Assembly (NCBI GenBank): GCA_944332465.1
Contig: CALVJZ010000003.1
Location: 1-33,187 of the forward strand
Direction of reading: 5' to 3'
Source of the DNA: an uncultured Bacilli bacterium
GTDB lineage: Bacteria; Bacillota_I; Bacilli_A; RF39; UBA660
DNA: 33,187 nucleotides
Shown here: positions 1 through 32,935 of the stretch, one piece after another
Layout: the number at the start of each line of letters is the position of its first letter
Position numbering within the stretch: position 1 is the stretch's first letter
Position numbers and translations under genes: made by a program
Notes under the pieces: generated by a model
Databases searched by the model: none
What the model saw: only the letters and a program-made list of their open reading frames with translations
What the model was told of the DNA's origin: nothing

Positions 1-2066
1 TATTTATTGGTCTTGGTATTTTAGCTTTTATATTGATTGTTGTTGCGGTTATTGCTACTTTTTCTTTTGCTGCTCCTTTAGATAATGATGTTAAGGTTGA
101 AGAGAATAGTGAGTTAACTTATTATATTGATATTATTTATGATGGTAAGGATGGTAGTGCTGTTACTTCTAGTGATAATGCTACTGCTCAGGTATATAGT
201 GATTATATTTATGTTGAAGATAAGATACCTGATGGTTTAACTTTTAAAGGGTTTGTAGAAACAGAAGATGGTACTATTGGTGCTGTTAAGCGTAGTGATA
301 ATAGTTTTTGTGCAGGTTATGTTGTTGATGGTGTAGATGGACTTAAATATGATGCAGATACACGTATGGTTACTTTTAAAGTTAAGAATTTACAAGCTGG
401 TTGTAAGATAACAGTTGGTATTATTACACAGACTCCTACTTTACCTAGTGGTGTTAATAGAATGGATTTTTATAATACAGCATTTGGACGTGAGGGTAAT
501 CAATCAGCTACTTCAAATACTGTTCATGCTTTTATTGGCCGTGATAGTGTAACTACTTATAATGTTACTTATCAATATACAGGTGATGTTCCTGATAATG
601 CACCAAGTCTTCCACCTGTTTCAAGTTATGCTGCTGGAACAACAGTTGGTATTGCCCAAGATATTAATTTAGATGGTTATCAATTTAGTGGTTGGAAATT
701 AGAGGGCGTAACATCTGTTGATGGTAAATCATTTGTGATGCCAGCTAAGAATGTTGTTTTAACTGGTAGTTTTACGAAGAAAGAACAAAAAGTAGAAGAG
801 GTTAAATATACTATTTCTGGTGTTGCACCTGATGGCTATCTTCCTCCGCTTGATAAGAGTTATCCTGTAGGTAGTGATGTTAAACTTGATTCTTTAAAAC
901 CAGGTGATGTAATTAATGGTTATCGTTTCTTAGGATGGAAAACTGATGATGTAGAACTTCCTCCACTTACAACAGAAGAGTCAACTATATTTACGATGCC
1001 AGATAATCCCGTTACTTTAGTTGGTCAATTTGAAAGAATTAGTTATAAAGTTACTTATAAATTTCAAGGTTCAGTTATTCCACCAAATGCAGATAGTTTG
1101 TTACCAAGTGAAGAAAGTTATTATCCAGGTGATAAAGTAATAACAGCACCTTTCCCTGAGACTTCAGGATATCGTTTCTTAGGGTGGTATCAAGCAGATG
1201 AATTTATAATGCCTGAAGAAGATGTTGTTATTTATGGGGAATGGATGGTTGAAACTGGGGTTTTTGCTCCAAGTATAAGTAAAGATATTGTTGATAAACA
1301 GACTTCTTATCAGTCTGGTGATATAGTTAAGTTTAATATCGTCGTTACAAATAATGAAAATTATGAAATAACTGATGTTATGTTAGAAGAACAATTAGAT
1401 GGTGCTAAGTTTGTAAGTGGTACTGGTTATGAAGTTAAAAATGATTCTTATGTTTTTATACCTAGTATAGGACCTAAAGGAAGTATTAGTGTTTCTGCAC
1501 AATATGTTGCTGGTGATGATGTTGTTAAGACATATAAAAACGTTGTTTCATTAACTGGTGCTCTTGCAGAGGGTAATTATATTTTAGATACTAGTAAAAC
1601 TTATAAAGCTGAAATAGAGTTTTTAGTTAGTAATATATCTTTAGATATTAATAAAGTTAATGAAGATGGAGAAAAATTAAGTAATTCAGAGTTTACTTTA
1701 TATCGTAATTCTAGTTTAACTAGTGTTGTTTCTAAAGGACTTAGTTTTAAAGGTTTATCTCCTGGTACAACATATTATTTAAAAGAAACTAAAGCACCAA
1801 GTGGTTACCAATTATTAGGTAAGACTTTAGAAGTTAAAGTAGATAGTAGTGGTAAAATAACTATTCCAAATTATGAAGTTACTTCTCAAAGTGGAAAACA
1901 TCAAGTTACAATTGTTAATCAAGAAATTAATGTATTACCAAATACTGGTGGAGTAGGAATTGTTCCATTTATAGTAGTTGGATTAGTTCTTATTATATTT
2001 GGTATAGGTTTTGTTATAGCGATGTTTAGAAAGAGAGGTGATAAACATGAAAAGAGTCGTAAGTAG
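1..2066 (+). CDS. LPXTG-anchored adhesin-like pilus protein with InlB-type and Cna_B domains, 5' partial
   Basis: The reading frame is open to the first complete codon at base 3, so the true start and part of the signal peptide lie upstream; the TTG at 33 falls inside the hydrophobic signal core and is not the start. After the signal come about 150 residues of unassigned ectodomain. Three InlB/Listeria-Bacteroides-type repeats follow (about 555-780, 802-1035 and 1042-1245), each with a G-Y-x-F-x-G-W core and a closing MP motif. Then come a DUF11-like beta domain (about 1265-1560) and a Cna_B/SpaA domain (about 1635-1900) with an ETKAPSGY E-box. The C-terminus is a standard sorting signal: LPNTGG at 1935-1952, a hydrophobic helix and a basic tail. 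It is probably the tip adhesin or an ancillary pilin, covalently linked by the sortases downstream. The next gene starts 20 bases before this one ends. The ligand cannot be told from sequence. Confidence 0.88.
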   Translation, partial: FIGLGILAFILIVVAVIATFSFAAPLDNDVKVEENSELTYYIDIIYDGKDGSAVTSSDNATAQVYSDYIYVEDKIPDGLTFKGFVETEDGTIGAVKRSDNSFCAGYVVDGVDGLKYDADTRMVTFKVKNLQAGCKITVGIITQTPTLPSGVNRMDFYNTAFGREGNQSATSNTVHAFIGRDSVTTYNVTYQYTGDVPDNAPSLPPVSSYAAGTTVGIAQDINLDGYQFSGWKLEGVTSVDGKSFVMPAKNVVLTGSFTKKEQKVEEVKYTISGVAPDGYLPPLDKSYPVGSDVKLDSLKPGDVINGYRFLGWKTDDVELPPLTTEESTIFTMPDNPVTLVGQFERISYKVTYKFQGSVIPPNADSLLPSEESYYPGDKVITAPFPETSGYRFLGWYQADEFIMPEEDVVIYGEWMVETGVFAPSISKDIVDKQTSYQSGDIVKFNIVVTNNENYEITDVMLEEQLDGAKFVSGTGYEVKNDSYVFIPSIGPKGSISVSAQYVAGDDVVKTYKNVVSLTGALAEGNYILDTSKTYKAEIEFLVSNISLDINKVNEDGEKLSNSEFTLYRNSSLTSVVSKGLSFKGLSPGTTYYLKETKAPSGYQLLGKTLEVKVDSSGKITIPNYEVTSQSGKHQVTIVNQEINVLPNTGGVGIVPFIVVGLVLIIFGIGFVIAMFRKRGDKHEKSRK

Positions 2067-2730
2067 TTTATTTGTTCTATTTTGTATTTTATGTTTAGTA
2101 CCTTTCTCAGTTTCTGCTGATGTGATAGATAATACACATACATCTAGTATGAATATTAGTTATAAGTATGGTGATATTTCTATTAGTAATACGCAAGTAT
2201 CATTATATTATTTAGGTGGATATGATGAGAGTGGTAATTTACAATTTACAGAAGAATATGCACCTGTTAGTTTTAATCCTTTAGAATTAGATACTATGGG
2301 ATTAGAAGTTCAAGCTAAAAAAGTAGAAGATTTTATTACTACTTCTAAGTGTATTCCTAGTTATGATGAAAATACTAATGAATCTGGTGAGATTAATTTT
2401 AGTAATTTAGTACCAGGAATTTACTTTGTTAGTTATGATGTTAAAGAGATAGATGGTTATTCTTATTATGCAGCTCCTGTTTTAGTAAGCATTCCTGTTT
2501 TACAAGATGATTTATATCAATATGATATTAATATGAATGTAAAGACAGAGCGTGAACAAATTATTTTGGATAATACTCCTAATGGAGAAGATATAAATGT
2601 GCCTAATACAATTGATAATGTTTTATATTATGGGGTATTATTAGTAATTTCTGTATTAGTCATTTTTGGAATAATGACTTATTTGATAAAAATTAAAGAA
2701 GTGAAAGGTGAGAAAAATGATAAAAAGTAA
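2047..2730 (+). CDS. Small minor pilin / surface protein with atypical VPNTI sorting motif
   Basis: This is a 227-residue secreted protein with an N-terminal signal peptide ending near S-V-S-A. The ectodomain is beta-rich and resembles a Cna_B-type pilin domain; the segment around VPGIYFVSYDV is typical of those folds. A C-terminal membrane helix and Lys-rich tail complete a cell-wall-sorting layout. The motif before the helix is V-P-N-T-I, with Ile where LPXTG has Gly, so recognition by an ordinary sortase is uncertain. ATG 2047 is chosen over the GTG at 2038 because AGAGAGGTGAT lies just upstream of it. It sits between the adhesin and the major pilin, which fits a pilus base or minor subunit. 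The pilin role is inferred from domains and position. Confidence 0.75.
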   Translation: MKRVVSSLFVLFCILCLVPFSVSADVIDNTHTSSMNISYKYGDISISNTQVSLYYLGGYDESGNLQFTEEYAPVSFNPLELDTMGLEVQAKKVEDFITTSKCIPSYDENTNESGEINFSNLVPGIYFVSYDVKEIDGYSYYAAPVLVSIPVLQDDLYQYDINMNVKTEREQIILDNTPNGEDINVPNTIDNVLYYGVLLVISVLVIFGIMTYLIKIKEVKGEKNDKK

Positions 2731-4240
2731 AAAGATTTTAATTTTTGTTGTCTCTGTATTTATGTTCTTTGGTCTTTTAAATGTTAGTGCTATTACAACT
2801 GGTAGTACTACAGGAACTATTGATACAGGAAGTAAAATTGTTACAGACCAAGCGTCTCTTATTGTAAGAGGTGTTGAAAATGGTGATCGTTTTAATGCTT
2901 ATAAAGTATTAGATACATATTATAATGCTACTACAAATACTATTAGTTATCAGTTTACAAATGATTTTCAAAAGTTTTTAAGTAGTAGTGATACTTATAG
3001 AGATTTAACTGTTGATAATTTATATAAGTATACAAGTGGTAATATTTCTAGTGGAAGTACTTTATCAACTTCAGATATTGATAAATTAGCTAGTGCTTAT
3101 GCTGGATATGTTCGTAAGAATAGTGTAAATGGTACAGCAATGAATGTAAGTGCTAATACAGCTAGTGCTCAACTTCAAGCTGGTTCTTATTTAGTATTAC
3201 CTACACAAACAATGAAAGTTTATGCTGTTATGTTTGGTAACTTAGATTTTACAGCAAATGGTGATAGTTGGACAATTAATAATGAAACAATTACAGCTAA
3301 AGTAAGTAATGCTGGTGTTAGTAAATCAGTTGGTGAAGAGAATATGGATAATGGTTCATATTCAATTGGAGATGATATTCCATTTATTGTTAAAGCAACT
3401 GTTCCACAATATCCAACAAATGCAACTAATAAGACTTATGTAATTAAAGATACTGTTACAGCTGGTCTTACATTTAATGGGGTACAATCTGTTATTATTC
3501 ATGATGGTGATGAAACTTTAGTAACTGCTAGTAATGGTAATGTTACAAATAGTTCAGATGAACAAGTAGCAACTATTAAGATTAGTGGACAAACATTAAC
3601 TATTACATTTAATGTAGATTATGTTAATAGTACAGCTTTAACTATTAATTATTCTGCTAAGTTAAATAATAATGCTGGTCTTGGAGCAACAGGTGGAAAT
3701 AAAAATAGTGTTAGTTTAACTTATTCAAATGATCCATATGGTACAGGTAGTTATACAACTATACCAGCTGATGGAGATAGTGAAGTAGATATTTATGTTT
3801 ATGGATTAGAAATCTATAAATATGGTGAAAGTGATGATAGTGTTAATGTTGCGTTACAAAATGCAGAATTTACTATTTATAAAGATAGTAGTTTAAATAA
3901 TAAAATTGCAACAGTAACTACTAATGCTAAAGGTATTGCTCAATACAAAGGTTTAGGTGCAGGAACTTATTATGTAAAAGAAACTAAAGCTCCTACTGGT
4001 TATGTATTAGATAGTAGTATTCATGAAATTGAAATTGGTCCTAGTGGTACATTAGAGGCTGCTGATACTGAAGGTTATTATCGTTTAGAAGTTAGTAACC
4101 AAAAAGCGGGACTTTTACCTGTTACAGGTAGTGTTGGAACTATTTTATTTGTAGTTTTAGGTCTTGCAATTATTGGTATAGCTGTATATTTCTTTGGATT
4201 TTACAAAAAGAATAAAAAACAAGGTGAACAAGCTATATAA
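2717..4240 (+). CDS. Major pilin subunit (SpaA/FimA-like), LPVTG-anchored
   Basis: The product is 507 residues: a signal peptide (about 1-25), an N-terminal pilin domain, a fimbrial isopeptide-forming D2-type domain (about 205-335, beginning near VSKSVGEEN), a C-terminal Cna_B domain with the E-box KETKAPTGY, an LPVTG motif at residues 467-471, a membrane helix and a basic tail. A Trp followed ten residues later by Lys (WTINNETITAK) sits where SpaA-type pilins carry the pilin-motif lysine used for cross-linking, so that lysine is the likely polymerisation site. ATG 2717 is preferred over GTG 2708 because AAGGTGAG lies five bases upstream. The gene overlaps the preceding one by 14 bases and is followed three bases later by a class C sortase, the usual partner of such pilins. 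Confidence 0.88.
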   Translation: MIKSKKILIFVVSVFMFFGLLNVSAITTGSTTGTIDTGSKIVTDQASLIVRGVENGDRFNAYKVLDTYYNATTNTISYQFTNDFQKFLSSSDTYRDLTVDNLYKYTSGNISSGSTLSTSDIDKLASAYAGYVRKNSVNGTAMNVSANTASAQLQAGSYLVLPTQTMKVYAVMFGNLDFTANGDSWTINNETITAKVSNAGVSKSVGEENMDNGSYSIGDDIPFIVKATVPQYPTNATNKTYVIKDTVTAGLTFNGVQSVIIHDGDETLVTASNGNVTNSSDEQVATIKISGQTLTITFNVDYVNSTALTINYSAKLNNNAGLGATGGNKNSVSLTYSNDPYGTGSYTTIPADGDSEVDIYVYGLEIYKYGESDDSVNVALQNAEFTIYKDSSLNNKIATVTTNAKGIAQYKGLGAGTYYVKETKAPTGYVLDSSIHEIEIGPSGTLEAADTEGYYRLEVSNQKAGLLPVTGSVGTILFVVLGLAIIGIAVYFFGFYKKNKKQGEQAI

Positions 4241-4243
4241 TTT

Positions 4244-5137
4244 ATGAAGAATGCGATAAAAGAAAATAAGTTAGTTATTTTTCTATTTATCCCTATGATT
4301 TTATTAGGATTAGGATTACTCCTATATCCTTTTATAAGTAATCGAATTAGTGTTGGACATTATCAGAAGGTTATTCAAACTTATGATAAAAAAGTAAGTG
4401 AAGAAACAAGGGATGCTAATAATAAACTGCTTATGGATGCCAGAGAATATAATAGAAGTTTATCGTTTGGTGAAGTAGTTGATGTTTTTCAAAATCCTGA
4501 AGTTAAAAATTCTGATAGATATTTGTCTATTTTAAATATTAATGATAATGGAATGATGGGATACATCTCAATACCTAAGATAGATGTAAGAATACCAATT
4601 TATCATGGTACAACGTCAGATGTATTGCAAAAAGGGGTTGGACATTTAGAAGGTAGTTCTTTTCCAGTAGGTGGAGAAAGTACGCATGCGATTTTATCTG
4701 CTCATAGAGGACTACCTTCATCTAAATTATTTACTGATTTAGATCAATTGAAAAAAGGGGATATTTTCTATATATATATTCTCAATCAGGTCCTTGCCTA
4801 TCAAGTAGATCAAGTATTAGTTACAGAGCCATCAGAAACAGATGCTTTAAGAATTGTTGATGGTAAAGACTATATTACTTTAGTTACTTGTACACCATAT
4901 GCTATTAATACTCATAGATTACTAGTTCGTGGGGAAAGAATAGAATATAATGAACAAGTCGAAAAGGATATAGAAGTAGATTATGCTTTATCTACAGCAG
5001 ATATCATTTTATATATCAGTTTAGTTATAGCATTATTACTTATTGTTGTTGCTATAATATGTTTTATTAAATCTAGAAAAAATAGACAAAATCCAAAAGA
5101 TGTAGAAACTAATTCTTCAGATATTGAAGTTATATAG
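4244..5137 (+). CDS. Class C (pilin-polymerising) sortase
   Basis: This 297-residue membrane transpeptidase has an N-terminal signal-anchor, an extracellular sortase barrel and a C-terminal transmembrane helix (about 247-270), the class C layout. The catalytic set is intact: His154 in SAHRG, Cys216 in TLVTCTP and Arg225 in NTHRLLVRG, with nine residues between Cys and Arg as in pilus sortases. In this family the enzyme cleaves the Thr-Gly bond of LPXTG and joins it to the pilin lysine of the next subunit. The DPW/DPF lid motif common in class C enzymes is not evident. The gene begins three bases after the major pilin stop, and its nearest Shine-Dalgarno-like AAGGTG (4221-4226) is far from the ATG, so translation is probably coupled to the pilin. 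Confidence 0.9.
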   Translation: MKNAIKENKLVIFLFIPMILLGLGLLLYPFISNRISVGHYQKVIQTYDKKVSEETRDANNKLLMDAREYNRSLSFGEVVDVFQNPEVKNSDRYLSILNINDNGMMGYISIPKIDVRIPIYHGTTSDVLQKGVGHLEGSSFPVGGESTHAILSAHRGLPSSKLFTDLDQLKKGDIFYIYILNQVLAYQVDQVLVTEPSETDALRIVDGKDYITLVTCTPYAINTHRLLVRGERIEYNEQVEKDIEVDYALSTADIILYISLVIALLLIVVAIICFIKSRKNRQNPKDVETNSSDIEVI

Positions 5138-5146
5138 GAGGACGTT

Positions 5147-5929
5147 ATGAGAAAGATTAAAAGAATTATTTTATATATTATTTTAGTCTTTTTTATAGGC
5201 GTTTTCTTTTTTTCTTTATGTCATATTATTATGTGGTATTTTGATAATAAAAAAACAGATAAAATTATTAATGAATTACAAGATATGGTGGAAGTTATTC
5301 CTCCTAAAGAGAATATTACAACAGAGATGTTAGATAGTAGTAAATATTATGATGTTTCATTATTAAGTGTTGATTTTACTAATTTATTACAAAAGAATAA
5401 TGATGTTGTTGGATGGATTCAAATACCTAATACTAATGTTGATTATCCATTTGTACAAACTAAAAATAATAGTTATTATTTAACACATTCTTTTGATAAG
5501 AAATATAATGATGCAGGATGGTTGTTTTTAGATTATAGAAATCATTTAAATCCCATAGATATGAATACTATTATTTATGCACATGGTAGAGTAGATGGTA
5601 CTATGTTTGGTAGTTTAAAAAATATACTTAGTGATGAGTTTCTAGATAAAGATGAGTGTTATATTAAAATGTCTACATTAAGTTATAATTATTTATTTGA
5701 AATATTTAGTGCATATCATATAAAAACAACAGATGATTATTTAGATACTAATTATAAAGATTTAAGTAAGTATCGTGATTATTTAGATAAAATTAAAAAG
5801 CGTAGTATGATAGATTTTGATAATAGTGTTTCAACTCAGAATAAAATAATTACACTATCTACTTGTTATAACAACTGGGAGAAGATGGTAGTTCATGCAA
5901 AGCTTGTTAAACAGGAAAAAAGATATTAA
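5147..5929 (+). CDS. Class B-like sortase with Lys at the expected catalytic Arg position
   Basis: The 260-residue protein has one N-terminal membrane anchor and a sortase domain with class B features: GWIQIPNTNVDYPFVQ, then His146 in YAHGR and Cys240 in TLSTC, ending with MVVHAKLV. In typical SrtB-type enzymes the third catalytic residue is an Arg immediately before the [MF]VV strand; here that position is Lys246 (codon AAG), and no other Arg occurs until the extreme C-terminus. The enzyme may be altered, inactive, or able to use Lys. It follows the class C sortase by nine bases and has a strong AGGAGG site. It probably attaches the finished pilus to the wall or handles the atypical VPNTI protein; this role is inference. 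Confidence 0.85.
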   Translation: MRKIKRIILYIILVFFIGVFFFSLCHIIMWYFDNKKTDKIINELQDMVEVIPPKENITTEMLDSSKYYDVSLLSVDFTNLLQKNNDVVGWIQIPNTNVDYPFVQTKNNSYYLTHSFDKKYNDAGWLFLDYRNHLNPIDMNTIIYAHGRVDGTMFGSLKNILSDEFLDKDECYIKMSTLSYNYLFEIFSAYHIKTTDDYLDTNYKDLSKYRDYLDKIKKRSMIDFDNSVSTQNKIITLSTCYNNWEKMVVHAKLVKQEKRY

Positions 5930-7164: not shown

Positions 7165-7450
7165 TATCGTTTTTAAAACGTTGAGGAAAAGAAGTAACTA
7201 TTTATTTATTCTTAAAGAGAGCTTGTGGTTGGTGGAAACAGGTAGAAGATAGTAGTGAATAACATTTCTGAGTGCTTAAAGAATTAAGTAGACTAAGCCG
7301 GTAGCAGACCGTTATATTTGCTAGATTTGATTGAATCGAAAAAGTGATTATGAAGAATTAATAACCTTTATAATAAATTGGGTGGCACCGCGGAAGACTA
7401 GTTTCGTCCCATAGTACTATTTAAGTATTATGGTACAGACTAGTCTTTTT
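7165..7450 (+). promoter_or_regulatory. T-box riboswitch, asparagine type
   Basis: The leader carries the conserved Stem I block AGAGAGCTTGTGGTTGGTG at 7216-7234, then GTGAAT followed by AAC at 7261-7263 in the specifier position and an A after it. AAC is an Asn codon. The T-box sequence GGTGGCACCGCG lies at 7381-7392; its UGGC bulge would pair with a tRNA ending GCCA, as expected for tRNA-Asn with discriminator G73. The leader ends in the terminator at 7394-7450. Uncharged tRNA-Asn should favour the antiterminator and switch on asnB and asnS, both of which help produce Asn-tRNA. The specifier is read by alignment to the usual Stem I order. Confidence 0.93.
7394..7450 (+). terminator. Regulated terminator of the Asn T-box
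   Basis: AAGACTAGT (7394-7402) pairs with ACTAGTCTT (7439-7447), followed by Ts. An inner stem pairs CCATAGTACT with AGTATTATGG. The 5' arm follows directly after the T-box sequence, as expected for a mutually exclusive antiterminator. Confidence 0.9.
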
Positions 7451-7476
7451 AATTTATTATTTAAGGAGTGATATTT

Positions 7477-9060
7477 ATGTGTGGATTTAGTGTTTATACT
7501 AAAAGAGATATTAGTAAGGAAGAGTTTAGTAAAAGTTTTAAGAAGATAGAGTATCGTGGACCAGATATGAGTCGTATAGAAGAGTATGATTATGGTATAT
7601 TTGGTTTTCATCGTTTGTCTATTATGGGACCTAGTGAAAGTGGTATGCAACCTATGCATTATCATGATAATGTTTTAGTTTGTAATGGTGAAATTTATGG
7701 TTTTCATAAAATTAAAGAAGAATTAATAGCAGATGGTGTAGAGTTTAAGAGTGAAAGTGATTGTGAAGTTTTACTTCCTATGTATGAAAAGTATGGTTTA
7801 GATATGTTTCGTATGTTAGATAGTGAGTTTGCTTGTTGTTTCTATGATGCAAAGAAAAAAGATTTTATTGCAGCAAGAGATCCAATTGGAATAAGAGCAA
7901 TGTTTTATGGGTATTCTAAAGTAAGTCATTCTATTATGTTTGCTAGTGAAGCTAAAGCCTTAGTTGATCTTTGTGATGAGGTATTTCCTTTTCCTCCAGG
8001 ATATTATTATGCTGATGGTAAGTTTACACAGTATTGTGATATGACTAAGGTTGATAAGTTTGTAAGTGGTGATTTAGAAAAGATTTATCCGGAGATTAAT
8101 AAAAGATTAGTAGAAGGAATTAAGAAAAGATTAGATTCTGATATGCCAGTAGGATTTTTACTTAGTGGGGGACTTGATTCAAGTTTAGTTTGTAGTGTAG
8201 CTGCAAAAATTTCTGATAAACCAATTCGTACTTTTGCAATTGGTATGGATATTGATGCAATTGATTTAAAATATGCAAAACAAGTAGCAGATTATATTGG
8301 TAGCAATCATACAGAAGTTATTATTAGCCGTGATGATGTAATTGAAGCATTACGTGATGTTATTTATCGTTTAGAAACCTGGGATATAACAACAATTCGT
8401 GCTAGTATTGGAATGTATTTACTTTCTAAATGGATAAGAGAAAATACAGATATACGTGTTCTTTTAACAGGGGAAGTTAGTGATGAGTTATTTGGATATA
8501 AATATACAGATTTTGCACCTAGTGCTGAAGAGTTTCAAAAAGAAAGTGAAAAAAGAATTCGTGAACTTTATATGTATGATGTTTTACGTGCTGATAGATG
8601 TATTTCAAGTTGTAGTTTAGAAGCTCGTGTACCATTTGCAGATTTAGATTTTGTGTCTTATGTTATGAGTATTGATCCTAAGTTAAAGATGAATAGTTAT
8701 GGACAAGGTAAATATTTACTTCGTAAGTCTTTTGAAGGTGGTTATTTACCGGATAGTATTTTGTATAGAGAAAAAGCTGCTTTTAGTGATGCAGTTGGAC
8801 ATTCTTTAGTGGATGATTTAAAAGAATATGCTGAGAGTTTATATAGTGATGAAGACTATAAAGAAAGAATAAAAAAATATACAACACATACACCATTTAC
8901 AAAAGAATCATTATTATATCGTGAGATATTTGAAGAATTTTATCCAGGACATAGTGACTTTATTGTTGATTACTGGATGCCAAATAAAAATTGGGAAGGT
9001 TGTCAAGTAGATGATCCAAGTGCGAGAGTGTTATCTAACTATGGTGCTAGTGGAGAATAG
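7477..9060 (+). CDS. asnB: Asparagine synthase (glutamine-hydrolysing)
   Basis: The product is 527 residues. ATG 7477 is required because it places Cys at residue 2 (M-C-G-F), the N-terminal nucleophile of class II glutamine amidotransferases after Met removal; the GTG at 7468 would block this. The N-terminal domain (about 1-190) hydrolyses glutamine, and the C-terminal synthase domain carries the ATP-pyrophosphatase loop SGGLDSS at residue 230. The enzyme makes asparagine from aspartate, glutamine and ATP. A strong AAGGAG site follows the T-box terminator, so expression should rise when Asn-tRNA charging falls. It is 28 bases upstream of asnS. Confidence 0.95.
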   Translation: MCGFSVYTKRDISKEEFSKSFKKIEYRGPDMSRIEEYDYGIFGFHRLSIMGPSESGMQPMHYHDNVLVCNGEIYGFHKIKEELIADGVEFKSESDCEVLLPMYEKYGLDMFRMLDSEFACCFYDAKKKDFIAARDPIGIRAMFYGYSKVSHSIMFASEAKALVDLCDEVFPFPPGYYYADGKFTQYCDMTKVDKFVSGDLEKIYPEINKRLVEGIKKRLDSDMPVGFLLSGGLDSSLVCSVAAKISDKPIRTFAIGMDIDAIDLKYAKQVADYIGSNHTEVIISRDDVIEALRDVIYRLETWDITTIRASIGMYLLSKWIRENTDIRVLLTGEVSDELFGYKYTDFAPSAEEFQKESEKRIRELYMYDVLRADRCISSCSLEARVPFADLDFVSYVMSIDPKLKMNSYGQGKYLLRKSFEGGYLPDSILYREKAAFSDAVGHSLVDDLKEYAESLYSDEDYKERIKKYTTHTPFTKESLLYREIFEEFYPGHSDFIVDYWMPNKNWEGCQVDDPSARVLSNYGASGE

Positions 9061-9088: not shown

Positions 9089-10471
9089 ATGGTAATTGAT
9101 GCGAAAGAGTTATATGAAAAAATAGAAGAATTTATGGATAAAGATGTTACAATTCAAGGATGGATTCGTAATCATCGTAAACAAAAAGAATTTGGGTTTA
9201 TTGATTTTTCTGATGGAACTTGTTTTAATCATATTCAAGTTGTCTATGATGATAAGTTAGAGGACTTTGATGATATTCAAAAATATCATGTTGGTAGTGC
9301 AATTGAAGTTTTAGGTAAAGTAGTAGAATCACCTAAAGAGGGACAAGCTTTTGAAATTCAAGCTAAGAAAGTTATATTACTTGGTGACTGTCCAGAAGAT
9401 TATCCAATTCAACCTAAAAAACATTCACGTGAGTTTTTAAGAGAACAAGCATATCTTAGACCTAGAACAAACTTATTCCAAGCTGTATTTCGTGTTAGAA
9501 GTGTAGCAGCTTATGCAATTCATAGATATTTTCAAGAACATGGTTATGTATATTTTCATGCTCCACTTATTACAGCAAGTGACTGTGAAGGAGCAGGGGA
9601 GATGTTTCATGTTACTTGTATGGATTTAGAGAGTGTTCCTAAAGTAGATGGTAAAGTTGATTATAGTAAAGATATGTTTCAAAAGCCTGCTTCATTAACT
9701 GTTTCTGGACAACTTGAAGCAGAAACTTTTGCTTTAGCATATAAGAAGACTTATACATTTGGACCTACTTTTAGAGCAGAAAATTCAAATACTAAAGTTC
9801 ATGCTAATGAGTTTTGGATGATTGAACCAGAGATTGCTTTTTGTGATTTAAAACAAGATATGGATATTATGGAAGAGATGTTAAAGTATGTAGTTGGTTA
9901 TGTACTTGATCATTGTAAAGATGAAATGAGTTTCTTAGATAAATTTGTGGAAAAAGGATTAATTGAAAAACTTACAAAGTTAGTTAATTCTAAATTTACA
10001 CGTGTTACACATAGAGAAGTTATTGATATTTTACAAAAAGCAGATGTTAAATGGGAATTTGAACCTAAACAGGGTGAAGATATTGCGAAAGAACATGAAA
10101 AATATATTACAGAATATTTTAATGGACCAGTATTTATTACAAATTGGCCAAAAGATATTAAAGCATTCTATATGAAATTAAATGAAGATGGTGAAACTGT
10201 TGCGGCAGTTGATCTTGAAGTACCAGGTGCTGGAGAAATCATGGGAGGAAGCCAAAGAGAAGAAGATTATGATAAACTTGTGTCTCGTATGAGGGAGTTA
10301 GATATGGATATGAGTGAGTTAGATTGGTATATTAATCTTCGTAGGTTTGGTGGATGTGTTCATTCAGGATTTGGTATGGGATTTGAACGTTTACTAATCT
10401 ATTTAACAGGTGTTGAAAACATTCGTGATGTTATTCCATATCCTAGAACACCAGGTAATTGTGACTTTTAA
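9089..10471 (+). CDS. asnS: Asparaginyl-tRNA synthetase
   Basis: The 460-residue class IIb synthetase has an N-terminal OB-fold anticodon-binding domain (about 15-105) and a catalytic domain with motif 2 around FRAENSNT and motif 3 GFGMGFERL near the C-terminus. It attaches Asn to tRNA-Asn. Asn rather than Asp specificity is supported by overall length, the AsnRS-like segment KVHANEFWMIEPEIAF and the Asn T-box upstream. A GTGAGGAGG site precedes the ATG. Being in one transcript with asnB, it is induced together with asparagine synthesis. Confidence 0.95.
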   Translation: MVIDAKELYEKIEEFMDKDVTIQGWIRNHRKQKEFGFIDFSDGTCFNHIQVVYDDKLEDFDDIQKYHVGSAIEVLGKVVESPKEGQAFEIQAKKVILLGDCPEDYPIQPKKHSREFLREQAYLRPRTNLFQAVFRVRSVAAYAIHRYFQEHGYVYFHAPLITASDCEGAGEMFHVTCMDLESVPKVDGKVDYSKDMFQKPASLTVSGQLEAETFALAYKKTYTFGPTFRAENSNTKVHANEFWMIEPEIAFCDLKQDMDIMEEMLKYVVGYVLDHCKDEMSFLDKFVEKGLIEKLTKLVNSKFTRVTHREVIDILQKADVKWEFEPKQGEDIAKEHEKYITEYFNGPVFITNWPKDIKAFYMKLNEDGETVAAVDLEVPGAGEIMGGSQREEDYDKLVSRMRELDMDMSELDWYINLRRFGGCVHSGFGMGFERLLIYLTGVENIRDVIPYPRTPGNCDF

Positions 10472-15125: not shown

Positions 15126-15848
15126 ATGAGTTGTGATACATATTATTTAGAGGATGGTAGTAGTTTTAAGAAAAGTGACTTGGTATATCTTGGAGAAGGA
15201 GCTAATGCACGTGTATGGAAATGTGGAAATAGTGCTTTTAAGGAATTTATACCTAGTCATATAGGTTCTGGTATTGATAAAAGACTAGGTGATATTTTTT
15301 CGGAGATTAATTTTTCTAATTTACCAAATTTTTATTCTTTTGTAAGATGGAGTAAAAGCGGAGATGTTCCATATATTGGTTATATGATGGAATATTTTGA
15401 AGAAGATAAAAAAGCAAGTATTTTAGATTTACCTATTTCTACCATTGTTTCTTCTTTTAGAGATTTAGAAAGAGATATTGAAGCTATTTCTGACTTTAAT
15501 ATTTTAATGAATGATGTAACGATTTATAATACAATGATTACAAGTGATGGTAAAATTCATACTTTTGATTATGATATGTTTTATATTGATGAGCATCATA
15601 GAGATGTTTTAAGAAAAAATAAACTTATGGAGTTAAGACTTTTGAAAGGGTTATTTGAATATTATACTTTTCACGATGCTGATTTAGATATAGAAGAAAA
15701 ACTTAATTGTGGAGCTCTTTATAGAAATATATTTTCTTTAAGAAATACTTATGGTTTTGATGTTAGTGGTGTTGTTTTAGATTTATTTGATAAAGATAGA
15801 ACACCGCGTGAAGGTGTAAAGAGGTTGGTGTATGAAAGATTTAGTTGA
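15126..15848 (+). CDS. Protein-kinase-like protein, tandem paralogue 1
   Basis: The 240-residue protein has a minimal kinase fold. A glycine loop LGEGANARV (22-30) is followed by Lys39 in AFKEF, which matches the ATP-binding VAIK lysine. The catalytic loop is D130-V-T-I-Y-N135, keeping the Asp and Asn of HRDLKPxN at the right spacing but without the usual Lys. D148-Y-D replaces DFG. A YMMEYFEE hinge-like segment lies between the lobes. The C-lobe is short compared with Ser/Thr kinases of about 260-280 residues. There is no membrane helix. It starts with an AGGGGG site, and its end overlaps paralogue 2 by 17 bases. The substrate is unknown; a degraded kinase or small-molecule kinase is also possible. 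Confidence 0.75.
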   Translation: MSCDTYYLEDGSSFKKSDLVYLGEGANARVWKCGNSAFKEFIPSHIGSGIDKRLGDIFSEINFSNLPNFYSFVRWSKSGDVPYIGYMMEYFEEDKKASILDLPISTIVSSFRDLERDIEAISDFNILMNDVTIYNTMITSDGKIHTFDYDMFYIDEHHRDVLRKNKLMELRLLKGLFEYYTFHDADLDIEEKLNCGALYRNIFSLRNTYGFDVSGVVLDLFDKDRTPREGVKRLVYERFS

Positions 15849-16533
15849 TAAAGATGGTAAGGTTTATGAAAGGGATAATTTAATTTTATTAGGGGGAGGA
15901 AGTAATTCTTATACCTTTTCCTATGATGATGGGGATATGAAAAAAGTAATTAAACTTTTTAAGAAGGAATGTTTAGATTTTGCTTTAAATCCCTATGTTG
16001 CGGGAATTATTAAATTATTACCACTAAAAAGTTATCCTAATTTTTATTCTATTTTAGAACAAGATGGAGAGTATTTAGGATATGTTATGGAATATTTTGA
16101 AAGATGTGATAATCTTTTACTAGATATGACAAAAGATAGTCTTATTACTTCATTTCAAGCAATGGAAGAAGATGTTAGTAGTTTTTCTAGAGGTCATTTA
16201 TTAATGAGTGATGTAAGAAGTTATAATTTATTATTTAGTAGTGATGGTTTAGCTCATTTAGTTGATTATGATATGTTTCAACTACATTTAAGAGCAAATC
16301 CAGATTCTTTGAAATTATATAATAGTGATACACTTAGTTCTTTTGTAAGAAGTGCCTTTGGAAAAGAAGTTTCAGATGAAATAACGTTTACGGATGATGA
16401 AAGGACTCAAATATATGGTATTTTAGATGAAATTTTTCCAGTATATATTCCTTTTTTACCTAGTGAAAGTATTGCTGATATGTTAGAAGATGGTGAAACT
16501 CCTAGACAATTTTTTAAGAAAAGGGTGAAATAA
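15832..16533 (+). CDS. Protein-kinase-like protein, tandem paralogue 2
   Basis: The 233-residue product shares the layout of paralogue 1: a leading D-K-D-G-K-V-Y hairpin, a Gly-rich loop LLGGGSNSYTF (19-29), Lys41 in VIKLF, the hinge-like YVMEYFE, a catalytic loop D-V-R-S-Y-N with Arg where canonical kinases have Lys, and DYD for DFG. Asp and Asn needed for phosphotransfer and metal binding are kept, so activity is plausible. The start overlaps paralogue 1 by 17 bases, which suggests translational coupling. Sequence divergence from its neighbours is high outside the motifs, pointing to an old duplication. Confidence 0.75.
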   Translation: MKDLVDKDGKVYERDNLILLGGGSNSYTFSYDDGDMKKVIKLFKKECLDFALNPYVAGIIKLLPLKSYPNFYSILEQDGEYLGYVMEYFERCDNLLLDMTKDSLITSFQAMEEDVSSFSRGHLLMSDVRSYNLLFSSDGLAHLVDYDMFQLHLRANPDSLKLYNSDTLSSFVRSAFGKEVSDEITFTDDERTQIYGILDEIFPVYIPFLPSESIADMLEDGETPRQFFKKRVK

Positions 16534-16536
16534 TTT

Positions 16537-17253
16537 ATGGATCGTTATGTAGATAGTAATGGTCAAATTTATGGAGAAGATAATTTAAGTTATCTTGGAC
16601 AAGGATATAATAGTAAAGTTTATAAAAATAGTAGTTATGATAGAGATGTTGCGGTAAAAATATTTAGAGATTCTTCTAGTATATTTTCTTTATCTGAAGA
16701 GACAGCTAGTATTATTTCTGATTTAAGACTTTATAGTTTTCCTACATTTTATTCAACTTTAAAAAAATGTAGTGATGGTAAACATTCAGGATATGTAATG
16801 CAATTTTTTTCTGTAGATGAGGATAGTAGGGTTATTGATATGGATTCTCATCAATTACTTGCATCAATAGAAGATATAGAACATGATATAAAAGAGTTTT
16901 CTAGTCATGATATTTTTATGGAAGATGTTAAAAAAGATAATTTTGTTTTGACAAGGGATGGAAGACTACATTTAATTGATTATGATATGTTTAGTCATTA
17001 TCCTGGTTTTTCTGTTGAAGAGGTAGAAGATAGAAATAGAAGAAGAATACAGGCTTTATTTTTAGATTATTTTCATGGTGAAGTATTTAATGATAGGTCT
17101 TTTACGAGTGATGAAAAAAGAGGAATTGATCAAATACTTAAATTTTATTTAGCAACAGATAGTCTTTATGAGGGATTAGAAAGTATGTTTTCTAGATATG
17201 AAAGTCCACGAGATTATTTTGAAAAAATTGGAAAAGAATTTGTCAAGAAGTAA
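16537..17253 (+). CDS. Protein-kinase-like protein, tandem paralogue 3 (most canonical)
   Basis: The 238-residue product has the clearest kinase motifs of the three: LGQGYNSKVY (20-29), VAVK with Lys41, hinge-like YVMQFF, a catalytic loop D-V-K-K-D-N that keeps the standard Lys, and DYD in the DFG position. A short C-lobe follows, and no membrane segment is present. AAGGGTGA eight bases before the ATG is a good ribosome site, and only three bases separate it from paralogue 2. The promoter for the Ile T-box overlaps the 3' end of this gene. If only one member of the trio is active, this is the best candidate. Confidence 0.8.
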   Translation: MDRYVDSNGQIYGEDNLSYLGQGYNSKVYKNSSYDRDVAVKIFRDSSSIFSLSEETASIISDLRLYSFPTFYSTLKKCSDGKHSGYVMQFFSVDEDSRVIDMDSHQLLASIEDIEHDIKEFSSHDIFMEDVKKDNFVLTRDGRLHLIDYDMFSHYPGFSVEEVEDRNRRRIQALFLDYFHGEVFNDRSFTSDEKRGIDQILKFYLATDSLYEGLESMFSRYESPRDYFEKIGKEFVKK

Positions 17254-28654: not shown

Positions 28655-28700
28655 TAGTTGTTTTTTTCAAGGAAAAGTAATTGTTTTTACTAATAATAAA

Positions 28701-28722
28701 GGTGGAGGTGGAAGAAAGTTTG
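28701..28722 (+). promoter_or_regulatory. Ribosome binding site and TTG start of the exporter
   Basis: GGTGGAGGTGG (28701-28711) lies about nine bases before TTG 28720. This start gives M-K-V-V-L-Q-D-G-N-K-D-C, the normal opening of a C39 peptidase domain. The upstream frame from 28681 would translate the ribosome site itself. Confidence 0.8.
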
Positions 28723-30792
28723 AAAGTTGTCTTGCAGGATGGAAATAAAGACTGTGGAATTAGTGCACTTCTATCTATTATTAGATATTTTGGGGGGAAT
28801 ATATCAAAAGAATATTTAAGAAGTCTTACAGGCACTAATAAAAATGGAGTCTCCATCTATCAGTTAATGGAAGCAGCAACAACACTTGGTTTTTCTTGTG
28901 AGGGTGTGAAGGGTGAGGTTTCATTTTTAGATTTATCTAAATTACCTTGTATTGCTCATATTGTATATCAAAAGAAATACCAACATTTTGTAGTTATATA
29001 CAAGATTGATTTTGATAAAAATGAAGTTGTTTTGATGGATCCAGCTAAAGGAAAAGTTGTATTATCTGTTAGTGCTTTTCAAATGTTATCTAGTGGTTAT
29101 TTTCTTTACTTGGTTCCTAATAAAAGTCTTCCTTGTTATTATGAAAAGAAAACTTTATTCAAATTATTAAGTCAGTTTTTAAAGCAGTATAAAATTATAT
29201 TTTTAATAATCATTATAGCATCTTTTCTTTTAATATTTATTGAAATTCTTTTAACCTTTCATTTTCAATATTTATATGATTTTGCTGTATCTTATAAAAT
29301 TATTGATAATATTTTTGTGATTAGTTATTTTCTTCTCGCTTTTTGTTTATTTCTAATATGTTTTAAAACCTTAAAAAACTACTTAATTTTAAGACTTAAT
29401 CTTTTCTTTGATCATAATATGAGTCTTTATTTTTATAAACAAATTCTTCTACTTCCATATTTATTTTTTAAGAATAGACCACTTGGAGAAATTTTAGAAA
29501 GACTACGTGATGTTAGTGAAGTTAAAAATTTTGTACTGGGACTATTTACTTCTATTGTTAGTAATTTATTATTTTTTATATTATTTTTTATACTACTATA
29601 TCGTATTCATTATATCTTTTTGTTACTGTTGTTAGGATATTTTGTTGTATTAGTTTTACTTTCTTTTTTCTTTTTTCGAAAAAAAGAAAGAAGACTTAAG
29701 AAGTTATTTACTAAGAAAGATTTTGTTCAGTCTTTTTTAGTAGAAACGTTTCAAAATGTAGATACTATTAAAGGTTTACATTTAGAATATGATTTTTTGG
29801 AACAAATAGAAAAATATTATCAAATTTATTTGGAGAAAAACTATGAGTTTCAAAAAATTGTTTTTTTAGAAAATTTTTTAAAACAGAGCTTTTATTATGT
29901 ATTAAATTTATTGTTTTTTGGATTTGGTAGTTACCTTTTAATAGATAGTAATATTTCTATCGCCTCCTTTATTATTTGTCAACAGATATTTAATTATTTA
30001 ATGCAGTATGGGGAAGATATTATGAGTTTTTTCTTTAATAGTTATAAAATTCCATTATCTATTTCAAGAATTGAAGAATTGTTTTCTATTTTTAGAGAGA
30101 ACTTTGAAGGTGGTAGTTATTATCAGTTATTAAAATTAGATGGTGATATTGTGTTTAGACATTTATCTTTCTCTTATGGCTTAAAGACAATTTTTTCTGA
30201 TTTTTCGTTTACAATTTTTTCACATAGTAAAGTTTTAATTACTGGTAAAAGTGGATGTGGAAAAAGTAGTTTGGTAAAAATAATTATGCGCTATTTAGAA
30301 GTTAATTATGGAGTGGTACGAATTGGTGGTATTGATATTAATCATATTCATTTAGATGTTATTAGAAATAATATTTCTTATGTGACGGGGAATGAACTTT
30401 TATTTTCTAATACATTACTTTATAACATTACGCTTGGTCGAGAAATAGAAGAAGAAAGGGTAAAAAAAGTTATTTCTTTAGTTAAGTTAGATGAGGTTGT
30501 GGAAAGACTCCCATTAAAATTAATGACTATAGTAGAAGAAAATGGTTTTAATTTTAGTGGTGGTGAAAGAGGGAAAATATTATTAGCAAGAGCTTTACTT
30601 AAAGTTAGTGATATTTATATTTTTGATGAGGCGTTTCACCAAATAGATATAGAACAAGAACATATTATTTTAGGTAATATTTTTAATTATTTGCGTGAAA
30701 AAACTATTATTGTGATTAGTCATAGATTAAATAATTTGGATTATTATGATAAAAGATATCGTTTGGAGGATGGTGAAATGCATGAATTTTAA
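28720..30792 (+). CDS. Bacteriocin-type ABC exporter with C39 peptidase domain
   Basis: The 690-residue protein combines three parts. The N-terminal C39 peptidase (about 1-135) has oxyanion Gln6, nucleophile Cys12 in KDCG, His89 in QHFVV and Asp107 in MDPA; it cleaves double-glycine leaders. A six-helix ABC membrane domain spans about 155-450. The nucleotide-binding domain has Walker A GKSGCGKS (509-516), signature FSGGE near 612, Walker B IFDE with catalytic Glu637, and the switch His668 in ISHRL. The usual DEATSALD is altered to DEAFHQID, but the catalytic Glu is kept. Such exporters cut and secrete peptide bacteriocins or pheromones. Two cognate double-glycine peptides lie at the end of this operon. 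The next gene overlaps it by 11 bases. Confidence 0.95.
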   Translation: MKVVLQDGNKDCGISALLSIIRYFGGNISKEYLRSLTGTNKNGVSIYQLMEAATTLGFSCEGVKGEVSFLDLSKLPCIAHIVYQKKYQHFVVIYKIDFDKNEVVLMDPAKGKVVLSVSAFQMLSSGYFLYLVPNKSLPCYYEKKTLFKLLSQFLKQYKIIFLIIIIASFLLIFIEILLTFHFQYLYDFAVSYKIIDNIFVISYFLLAFCLFLICFKTLKNYLILRLNLFFDHNMSLYFYKQILLLPYLFFKNRPLGEILERLRDVSEVKNFVLGLFTSIVSNLLFFILFFILLYRIHYIFLLLLLGYFVVLVLLSFFFFRKKERRLKKLFTKKDFVQSFLVETFQNVDTIKGLHLEYDFLEQIEKYYQIYLEKNYEFQKIVFLENFLKQSFYYVLNLLFFGFGSYLLIDSNISIASFIICQQIFNYLMQYGEDIMSFFFNSYKIPLSISRIEELFSIFRENFEGGSYYQLLKLDGDIVFRHLSFSYGLKTIFSDFSFTIFSHSKVLITGKSGCGKSSLVKIIMRYLEVNYGVVRIGGIDINHIHLDVIRNNISYVTGNELLFSNTLLYNITLGREIEEERVKKVISLVKLDEVVERLPLKLMTIVEENGFNFSGGERGKILLARALLKVSDIYIFDEAFHQIDIEQEHIILGNIFNYLREKTIIVISHRLNNLDYYDKRYRLEDGEMHEF

Positions 30793-31195
30793 ATTTCAAA
30801 AACCTTTTTCTTGTTTTTATTTTTTGTTTATATTTTTTGGTATTCTTTTTTTCATTTTTTTGTTTGTTTTGTTTCATAAAAAAATTATTAATACTTATCA
30901 AATGATTCCTTTTGTGGCAATAGGAGAAGATACTATAGAAGGAGTTGTTTCAACCTCAGAACTTTCGTGGTTAGAAAAAAATAAATATTTACTTATTGAT
31001 GGAGAAAAAATTTTATTTAATATTACTTCCGTACAAAGAAAAGTTATGAAAAAAAAGAGACTTTGGTATCATCAAGTGGAGTTAAAACTTACGGTTTCTA
31101 AATATCATTTTAATGATTCTTTATTAGTTGGAGTTTTACAGAAGAAAAAAACATTTAGTTATTTGTTTTTTGAAATATGGAAAGGAGAGTCATGA
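30782..31195 (+). CDS. Short membrane-anchored accessory protein of the bacteriocin operon
   Basis: The 137-residue protein has a Phe-rich N-terminal membrane helix (about 8-32) and a beta-rich extracytoplasmic part. Segments such as FVAIGEDTIEGVVS, KYLLIDGEKILFNI and WYHQVELKLTV alternate like the barrel domain of HlyD/MFP-type accessory proteins, but the long coiled-coil hairpin and lipoyl domains are missing. It could be a reduced export accessory protein or the immunity protein. ATG 30782 is chosen because it overlaps the exporter stop with GGTGA just upstream. Its own stop TGA overlaps the ATG of the first peptide gene (ATGA). Confidence 0.7.
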   Translation: MNFKFQKPFSCFYFLFIFFGILFFIFLFVLFHKKIINTYQMIPFVAIGEDTIEGVVSTSELSWLEKNKYLLIDGEKILFNITSVQRKVMKKKRLWYHQVELKLTVSKYHFNDSLLVGVLQKKKTFSYLFFEIWKGES

Positions 31196-31332
31196 AAAGA
31201 GTTAGTGATTTAGAATTAGAAGAAATAAGAGGAGGTGTATCTGGATGGGTAATGGTTGGTATTGCGGCAATAGTAGTCTTTTTAGCAGGCGTTTTTGAAG
31301 GTATCACCAATCCCACTCCATGTCAAAGATGA
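31192..31332 (+). CDS. Double-glycine-leader bacteriocin precursor, peptide 1
   Basis: The 46-residue precursor has leader MKRVSDLELEEIRGG (1-15), matching the double-glycine pattern (L, E-L, I, GG) recognised by C39 peptidases, and a 31-residue core beginning V-S-G-W. The core is a hydrophobic helix (about 19-35) with a GxxxG motif at G33-V-F-E-G37, ending in ITNPTPCQR with a single Cys44. AAGGAG lies just before the ATG, which overlaps the accessory-gene stop. GxxxG motifs and paired genes are hallmarks of two-peptide (class IIb) bacteriocins. A peptide pheromone is an alternative. Confidence 0.88.
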   Translation: MKRVSDLELEEIRGGVSGWVMVGIAAIVVFLAGVFEGITNPTPCQR

Positions 31333-31499
31333 AAATAGTTGATAATAATGAGTTAGATTGTGTTTTAGGAGGAGAAACTATATCTGGTACAGTAATTAAT
31401 GCCTTTGGAAATATTATAGAGTTATTACTTGATGCAGGTAGAAGAGTAGGAAGTGCTATTAGACGATTTTCAGAGGGGAATTTATGTTCTTTAGACTGA
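31329..31499 (+). CDS. Double-glycine-leader bacteriocin precursor, peptide 2
   Basis: The 56-residue precursor has leader MKIVDNNELDCVLGG (1-15) with the expected E-L, V and GG positions, and a 41-residue core beginning E-T-I-S-G. The core has an amphipathic helix (about 20-36), then a basic segment with GxxxG at G37-R-R-V-G41 and paired Arg at 45-46, and ends NLCSLD with one core cysteine, Cys53. Another Cys (11) lies in the leader, which is unusual. The ATG overlaps the stop of peptide 1 (ATGA) with no clear ribosome site of its own, so it is probably made by coupled reinitiation. The cationic character complements the hydrophobic peptide 1. Confidence 0.87.
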   Translation: MKIVDNNELDCVLGGETISGTVINAFGNIIELLLDAGRRVGSAIRRFSEGNLCSLD

Positions 31500-31510
31500 T
31501 TTTGTCTAAA
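31490..31510 (+). other. Hairpin at the end of the bacteriocin operon
   Basis: TTTAGAC (31490-31496) pairs with GTCTAAA (31504-31510) around a 7-base loop, overlapping the peptide 2 stop. No T run follows directly; a T run lies at 31528-31534. It may protect the 3' end or be a weak terminator. Confidence 0.4.
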
Positions 31511-31557
31511 AATGTGGTAAAACTTGCTTTTTTTAATAAAAAAATGGGCAAAAATTG

Positions 31558-31586
31558 TTGAAATATAAGGAAAGGTTTGATATAAT
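31558..31586 (+). promoter_or_regulatory. Promoter of rpsU
   Basis: TTGAAA (31558-31563), a 17-bp spacer and TATAAT (31581-31586), preceded by TGA (extended -10). This is among the strongest promoters in the window. Confidence 0.8.
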
Positions 31587-31619: not shown

Positions 31620-31820
31620 ATGGCAACACAAGTAACAGTTAAAAACGGAAATTTGGATTTAGCTCTTAGAAAATTCAAACAAAAAGTGGCTAGAGACGGT
31701 GTCCCTTCTGAATGCAAAAAACGTGAATCTTATATCAAACCTGGAGTAGCTAGAAGAGCAGCTAAAAAAGAAGGAATTAAAAATTCTAAAAAAAGAAATC
31801 GTAAAGATAACAGAGACTAA
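31620..31820 (+). CDS. rpsU: 30S ribosomal protein bS21
   Basis: The 66-residue, highly basic protein opens MATQVTVKNGNLDLALRKFK, followed by VARDGVPSECKKRESYIKPG, the usual bS21 pattern, and ends in a Lys/Arg-rich tail. It is a small-subunit protein near the anti-Shine-Dalgarno region of 16S rRNA and helps initiation. ATG 31620 follows GAAGGGAGGG. It stands alone with its own promoter and terminator. The long minus-strand frame across it is a shadow. Confidence 0.96.
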   Translation: MATQVTVKNGNLDLALRKFKQKVARDGVPSECKKRESYIKPGVARRAAKKEGIKNSKKRNRKDNRD

Positions 31821-31855: not shown

Positions 31856-32935
31856 ATGTTAAAGGTTTCAAAGAAATTTAAAAGTCTTGCTTTAGCAGGA
31901 TTATTGTCTCTTTGTATTATTCCTGTTAATGGATGTAGCAGTAAAAATAGTAATGAAGGTTATGAACCAACTGAATATGCAGAGGGAGAACATCAAATTG
32001 TTTCTGTAGAAAAAAGTTTTGATCCATTCTTTGGTAAAAATGGTACTTATGGATTAAAAGCACCAGAAGGATATAAAATTACTGATTATGATTATGATAA
32101 AACTGATTATTTCGGTTTTGATGATTATACTTATGAAAATGTAGCTCCTGTAGAAGTCTTAAATCCTAATAATATTGGTACACCATTAGAAGAGACTGAA
32201 GAAGTTAGTGAAGTTTATGAAAGTGGAGAACATGTTATTGTAGATATAAAGCGTGGTTTTAATCCTTTCTTTGGTAAAGGAGATCAAGTTTTTCATTTAA
32301 CAGCACCAGAAGGATACGATGTTTTAGATTATGATTATGATAAAACTGATTCATTTGAATTTGTAAATATTACATATGTTAATAATCAACAGGTAAAGGT
32401 TAATGATATTAATCAGTTTGGTGAAGTTGTAGATAAAGTAGAGAGTAAAGAACAAGGTAATACATATGATGTTGGTACTGATTTTATGGTGGTATTAAAT
32501 CGTAGCTTTAATCCATTGTTTGGTAAAGATGAGATGAAAGAAGTACCTAGTATTCCTGGTTATGTAGTTGTTGATTATGATTATGATAAAACCGATTCAT
32601 TTGAATTTGAAACAATAGTTTATAAAAACATCGTACCTGTTGTTGTGGAAAATGAAAATGAAATTGGAGTTCCTGTTTCACCTGTAGAAGAAGATACACA
32701 TAGTGATGGTATTTATGATGAAGGGGAACACGTATTAGTAGATATTGATAGAAATTTAAATTTTTTAACTGGTTATAGTGGAACAAAAGAAGTAACATCA
32801 CCTGATGGATATGAGGTTTTAGACTATGATTACGATAAAAATGATGATTTTGAGTTTGATACTATAGTTTATAGTAATGACGAAAGTGTTTCTGTAAGCG
32901 ATAGTAATGATTTTGGTAAAGTCTTAAAAAAATAG
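31856..32935 (+). CDS. Lipoprotein made of four tandem repeats of about 80 residues
   Basis: The 359-residue protein has a lipoprotein signal with Cys27 in VNGCSS. The mature protein is acidic and consists of four repeats whose starts are 80, 83 and 83 codons apart. Each has the order GEHxxVxVxRxFNPFFGK, then APEGYxVxDYDYDKTDSFEF, then xYxNxxxVxV and an acidic linker. The DYDYDK[TN]D segment is the most conserved and its Asp spacing could bind calcium. I do not recognise the family. Repeat 4 is the most diverged in its first half (NLNFLTGYSG). AAGGAGG precedes the ATG. It is probably a surface-exposed protein tethered to the membrane. Confidence 0.85.
   Translation: MLKVSKKFKSLALAGLLSLCIIPVNGCSSKNSNEGYEPTEYAEGEHQIVSVEKSFDPFFGKNGTYGLKAPEGYKITDYDYDKTDYFGFDDYTYENVAPVEVLNPNNIGTPLEETEEVSEVYESGEHVIVDIKRGFNPFFGKGDQVFHLTAPEGYDVLDYDYDKTDSFEFVNITYVNNQQVKVNDINQFGEVVDKVESKEQGNTYDVGTDFMVVLNRSFNPLFGKDEMKEVPSIPGYVVVDYDYDKTDSFEFETIVYKNIVPVVVENENEIGVPVSPVEEDTHSDGIYDEGEHVLVDIDRNLNFLTGYSGTKEVTSPDGYEVLDYDYDKNDDFEFDTIVYSNDESVSVSDSNDFGKVLKK
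31985..32932 (+). repeat. Four in-frame repeat units in the lipoprotein gene
   Basis: Units begin at 31985, 32225, 32474 and 32723, giving spacings of 240, 249 and 249 bases. The block around GATTATGATTATGATAAAA recurs in each with small changes. Confidence 0.85.

Follow-up and report, generated by a model that had tools for sequence, protein, structure and literature searches.

Bacteriocins are mostly regarded as strain-variable weapons in an arms race, and in class IIb the two peptides have to be present together, at roughly equal levels, for antibacterial activity. Hallmarks of this class are GxxxG motifs and membrane-associated immunity proteins, and lactococcin G and plantaricin EF/JK have adjacent genes with GG leaders, a C39-ABC exporter and GxxxG motifs (PMC8538875), three features that the locus described here has as well. 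In Streptococcus pneumoniae, the two-peptide bacteriocin CibAB, which goes with CibC, is universal in the species and serves a predation that is tied to DNA uptake, while in S. mitis its carriage is 27% of genomes (PMC13059744). Among two-peptide bacteriocins that are fixed and linked to DNA uptake, CibAB comes closest to the present case. The closest mining work in the literature, going by the accessible part of its text, is IIBacFinder, and no paper on bacteriocins of the present lineage was found in the literature searched, in which few subscription papers were covered.

The window analysed here is a stretch of 33,187 nucleotides from an uncultured Bacilli bacterium (contig CALVJZ010000003.1 of GCA_944332465.1), the draft assembly of which comes to 1.23 Mb at a completeness of about 80%. 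A continuous run of four plus-strand genes, from 28720 to 31499, encodes a C39-peptidase ABC exporter, an accessory membrane protein and two precursor peptides, here called A and B. The exporter gene (28720..30792, 690 aa) starts at a TTG that follows the RBS-like GGTGGAGG, with an in-frame TTG at 28681 as an alternative start. The accessory gene (30782..31195, 137 aa), which begins with ATG, overlaps the 3' end of the exporter gene and is followed by the genes of precursor A (31192..31332, 46 aa) and precursor B (31329..31499, 56 aa), both also with ATG starts. Precursor A consists of the leader MKRVSDLELEEIRGG and the core VSGWVMVGIAAIVVFLAGVFEGITNPTPCQR, and precursor B of the leader MKIVDNNELDCVLGG and the core ETISGTVINAFGNIIELLLDAGRRVGSAIRRFSEGNLCSLD. 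Neighbouring genes overlap in the sequence by 4 to 11 bases each, which suggests coupled translation. The first-pass annotation had described this arrangement of an exporter, a short membrane accessory and two frames of 46 and 56 residues with the right sizes, the exporter being intact with all three of its domains, and its 15-residue GG leaders with the consensus E-L-x-x-[IV]-x-GG are correct for both A and B.

The boundary gene is rpsU (ribosomal protein S21; 31620..31820, plus strand), which has its own promoter-like site at 31558-31586 according to a promoter scan and is found 3' of the peptide genes in 41 of 84 loci with short flanks, this being the usual genomic position. Downstream of rpsU, the region 31856-32935 encodes a lipoprotein-like protein with four repeats around YDYDKTDSFEF, and some members of the genus (L003, L006, L008) encode proteins similar to it at the same place after rpsU. 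Other parts of the window contain a T-box leader at 7172-7414 (Rfam RF00230, 134 bits), located directly 5' of an asparagine-synthase-like gene (7468-9060), which is followed by an asparaginyl-tRNA-synthetase-like gene (9089-10471), both named from their translations. The region 3-5929 encodes three secreted proteins with LPxTG-like ends (LPNTG, VPNT and LPVTG) and then two sortase-like genes, as read from the translations, and this cluster is probably a pilus locus. Three tandem related genes at 15126-17253, of 233-240 aa and with a kinase-like pattern, are an apparent local triplication.

The exporter matches the Pfam models Peptidase_C39 (E 3e-32), ABC_membrane (E 4e-28) and ABC_tran (E 2e-21), and it is homologous end to end to PCAT1 (E 9e-85) and ComA (E 2e-77), two transporters with solved structures whose cargo is unlike A and B. 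In the end-to-end alignment with PCAT1 (4ry2) and ComA (8hf4), the DCG, HF and DP stretches of the peptidase are conserved. Its score against the NCBIfam model of C39-type bacteriocin exporters (TIGR01193) is 334.7 bits over the full length, below the NCBI cut-off of 523.85, which makes it a relative that stands outside the curated subfamily. It is also related to the mycoplasma Mbov_0121 family ABC transporter (NF045998), with a score of 265.7 bits that is below the 500-bit cut-off. This exporter is the sole C39 gene found in the roughly 80% complete draft, and it is present once per genome in 80 of 88 family genomes.

The accessory protein, modelled with AlphaFold2 (mean pLDDT 84), is predicted to have a single TM helix at its N-terminus, together with a small beta domain. 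A fold search of the PDB with this model gave no match at E<=0.001, and MacA and MexA were weakly present among many barrels; the accessory is at most a possible membrane-fusion protein. Relatives of the accessory are found in 58 loci, and it is missing from 19 loci that keep A and B. Remote similarity to the mycoplasma MAG1140 family (NF045999) was detected in 8 of 15 members (best E 9e-5). Because the accessory remotely resembles this family and the exporter is related to the Mbov_0121 family, exporter and accessory may have formed a module before the A-B pair arose. The mycoplasma-like genomes looked at encode GG-leader proteins that are longer than A and B, with no exporter within about 6 kb. 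These proteins, of 88-130 aa, have the same type of GG leader (L136, 6042-6431; L142, 5617-6006; also L137-L140) and an SGALLNG-like start after it, and could be a second, longer class of cargo. The idea that such leader-only matches are the same pair was rejected, the proteins being longer and the exporter not nearby.

The core of A has 31 residues and is strongly hydrophobic (mean hydrophobicity 0.91), with a GxxxG motif and a C-terminal P..C, while the core of B has 40-41 residues and is amphipathic (helix moment 0.76) and cationic, with a GxxxG motif, an RR and a C-terminal Cys. Both precursors are readable in 73 loci, where A is always followed by B, and the GxxxG motif is present in 71 of the 73 A cores and in all 73 B cores. 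All 73 cores of either peptide have a Cys within the last nine residues; it is the only Cys in 62 A cores and 68 B cores, and further Cys are found in 11 and 5, respectively. Alignments of 36 rows have G33, G37, P41 and C44 of A, and G37, G41 and C53 of B, as invariant positions in the cores. The A and B models give one strong match each in this genome, at these genes (E 2.9e-20 and 1.5e-24), and these single matches together with the ordered pair in 73 loci indicate that A and B are not chance frames. As an observation apart, one locus (L066, genome G059) has four GG-leader peptides after the exporter, which look like two successive A-B pairs.

Both cores had been described at first as unmatched to any named bacteriocin, which holds for B, whose sequence in the window matches no named family, TIGR03949 included, and does not hold for A, which scores 22.1 bits against TIGR03949 (class IIb, lactobin A/cerein 7B family), just over the NCBI cut-off of 21.5. 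Of 36 A members compared with this family, 33 reach E<=0.1, the best of them 4e-8. As A is over the cut-off of a class IIb family, the pair is new but not alien. Profile searches of the PDB with A, B and the accessory gave matches that were restricted to leaders or due to chance, and bacteriocin precursors in the PDB are similar to A and B in their leader regions only.

A third small gene, here called C, is found in 30 of the 73 loci. It starts out of frame in the last codons of B and forms a frame of 31-62 residues with a TM segment and a GxxxG motif and with no leader. C as a chance frame was rejected, because shuffled downstream sequences contain such frames at a mean of 0.02 (maximum 1). 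In a profile comparison, the C-terminal half of C matches the core of B over the last 29 columns of B (probability 94%, E 1.6e-7), the shared pattern being G-xxx-GTFxR, and C is a candidate immunity peptide that would mimic B. In the window, the site of C (31484..31561, plus strand) has its start codon inside the end of B and contains a 25-aa frame without the TM segment; an alignment of the genus indicates that the corresponding stretch is deleted here and in several genus mates. No match to C was found elsewhere in the draft assembly, about 80% complete, and no recognisable immunity gene is located beside the operon of the window. The flanks of 84 loci contain no recurrent immunity-like neighbour other than C, and a survey of Abi/Rce1-type genes is uninformative for immunity because nearly all genomes, in the family or outside it, have them. 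That the unit is complete, as had been stated at first, is doubtful for the window, since the gene C of many relatives is lost here and no immunity gene is recognisable.

The B model matches 268 of 291 family genomes, 144 of 150 genera and 196 of 206 good-quality genomes (about 95%), nearly always once per genome; among the genomes close to that of the window are uncultured Bacilli and a 'Tenericutes' MAG. The A model matches 134 of 143 good genomes of the order, in a sample of 146 genomes that all come from one family. Full-length B was found in none of 341 other genomes of the class, which gave nine leader-only matches, and full-length A in none of 373 other genomes of the phylum; plasmid and phage collections contain no match to B. 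Trees of the exporter and rpoB from 60 genomes largely agree, with 20 of 57 splits in common (0.24 with shuffled names), and their distances are correlated (r 0.47, a value that 2000 permutations never reached), while two exporter splits with support of at least 0.95 conflict with equally supported rpoB splits. Vertical inheritance is the best reading of the history of the operon, the exact course of which falls short of proof because single-gene trees are noisy. Within the genus, the exporter has a pooled pairwise dN/dS of 0.24, and the cores of A and B have lower values of 0.14 and 0.09, respectively, which indicates that the mature peptides are under purifying selection and are more constrained than their own exporter. 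The two frames reported by the first-pass annotation are thus conserved as an ordered A-B pair beside homologous exporters, and the synonymous-site pattern upholds that they are coding.

Adjacent genes with GG leaders, a dedicated C39-ABC exporter and GxxxG motifs in both peptides are the class IIb features seen at this locus, and the initial proposal of a two-peptide bacteriocin-type unit with C39 export is supported by conservation, gene order and selection. As far as sequences can tell, the locus is probably a core operon, passed on vertically, for the production and secretion of a class IIb-like, putatively membrane-active A/B pair. By analogy with known families, the C39 domain would cut the leaders of A and B after GG and the ABC part would export both cores. 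A as a hydrophobic TM-like helix and B as an amphipathic cationic helix would pack via GxxxG, a disulphide between the conserved C-terminal Cys residues perhaps holding the two together, and the packed pair would permeabilise the membranes of neighbouring cells. Where C is present, it would act as a membrane-anchored copy of the pairing segment of B and confer immunity by capturing A.

Most bacteriocins do not have cores conserved across a whole family, and such conservation would be compatible with a role in structure or signalling as well. A and B could be a small hetero-oligomeric structure in the envelope of the producer itself, with no antagonistic function, and the single copy, near universality, vertical inheritance and strong purifying selection agree with this, as does the lack of a clear immunity gene in over half of the loci. 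Such a housekeeping part is nevertheless unlikely, given that a leader-cutting exporter is used rather than direct insertion, that A is over the cut-off of a bacteriocin family, and that the adjacent B-like membrane peptide C, absent from many loci, fits immunity better. C39 transporters also export the signals ComC and BlpC, and the exporter found here is of the same class as ComA, so that A and B might instead be the secreted signals of a family-wide quorum-sensing system, to which the high conservation of the peptides and the presence of ComEC in 65 of 71 family genomes would also correspond. Signals usually diverge between genera, however, and cores of 31 and 40-41 residues, one of them TM-like, with paired GxxxG motifs have the look of a pore former. 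Moreover, no recurrent kinase or regulator is present in the flanks of 84 loci, and a search of this genome (assembly about 80% complete) for PF14501, the kinase domain of AgrC/ComD type, gave no match, although this survey is not decisive, the matches in relatives being mostly weak and possibly generic kinases. A pair of pheromones is quite improbable.

The exporter and leaders are of bacteriocin type, as would be expected of an ordinary variable bacteriocin cluster recently acquired by the strain, but this origin is contradicted by the trees with their vertical pattern, by the conserved place beside rpsU, by the occurrence of B in 144 of 150 genera and by the lack of B matches in plasmids and phages, and we consider it extremely improbable. 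A near-universal single-copy unit in the family itself argues against an ordinary strain-variable bacteriocin. The class IIb-like, putatively membrane-active pair is the reading preferred here. What counts against it is that the window has no recognisable immunity gene and C is missing in over half of the loci, that the cores are conserved throughout the family, that the accessory has no confident fold match in the PDB and, for the disulphide, that some cores have a further Cys.

The family has small genomes and next to no fabF, the gene being present in 1 of 71 genomes against 24 of 47 from elsewhere in the class; both traits agree with the description that Nayfach et al. (PMC6784871) give of RF39, an uncultured order to which the lineage probably belongs, with UBA660 as its family. 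With fabF lacking and ComEC kept, it is reasonable, if speculative, to propose that lysed neighbours are a source of lipids or DNA, a scheme in which the pair would open neighbouring cells for lipids, nutrients or DNA and would not serve rivalry between strains. It is conceivable, though doubtful, that a genome-reduced, lipid-dependent gut lineage has fixed a predicted disulphide-linked A-B pore former as a core "feeding" tool for lipids, nucleotides or DNA, with the small membrane peptide C, a copy of the pairing segment of B that is not secreted, protecting the producer by taking the place of B.

That an uncultured gut lineage has kept a single-copy pair, with cores more conserved than their exporter, over about 150 genera suggests that its ecological function is a basic one. 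The A and B cores, at 31 and 40-41 residues, are a synthesizable lead on the life of genome-reduced bacteria that live among others without fatty-acid synthesis, and immunity by a membrane-bound mimic is a testable idea. The pair is also a marker of the family, of which existing annotation recognises half.

Compared with the lactobin A/cerein 7B family (TIGR03949), A is alike in its GG leader and its glycine-rich hydrophobic core, but that family has no fixed partner B, and its match covers residues 5-38 of A, which places the invariant P..C end of A outside it. In contrast to lactococcin G and plantaricin EF/JK, each peptide of the present pair has a conserved C-terminal Cys, the window has no recognisable immunity protein, and the pair is conserved over about 150 genera and is not scattered. 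CibAB is core at the level of a species, whereas the pair described here is core to a whole family and has its own exporter. The kind of system is thus already known, and what is new is that the pair is fixed throughout the family, that both peptides have a C-terminal Cys, and that a gene C exists.
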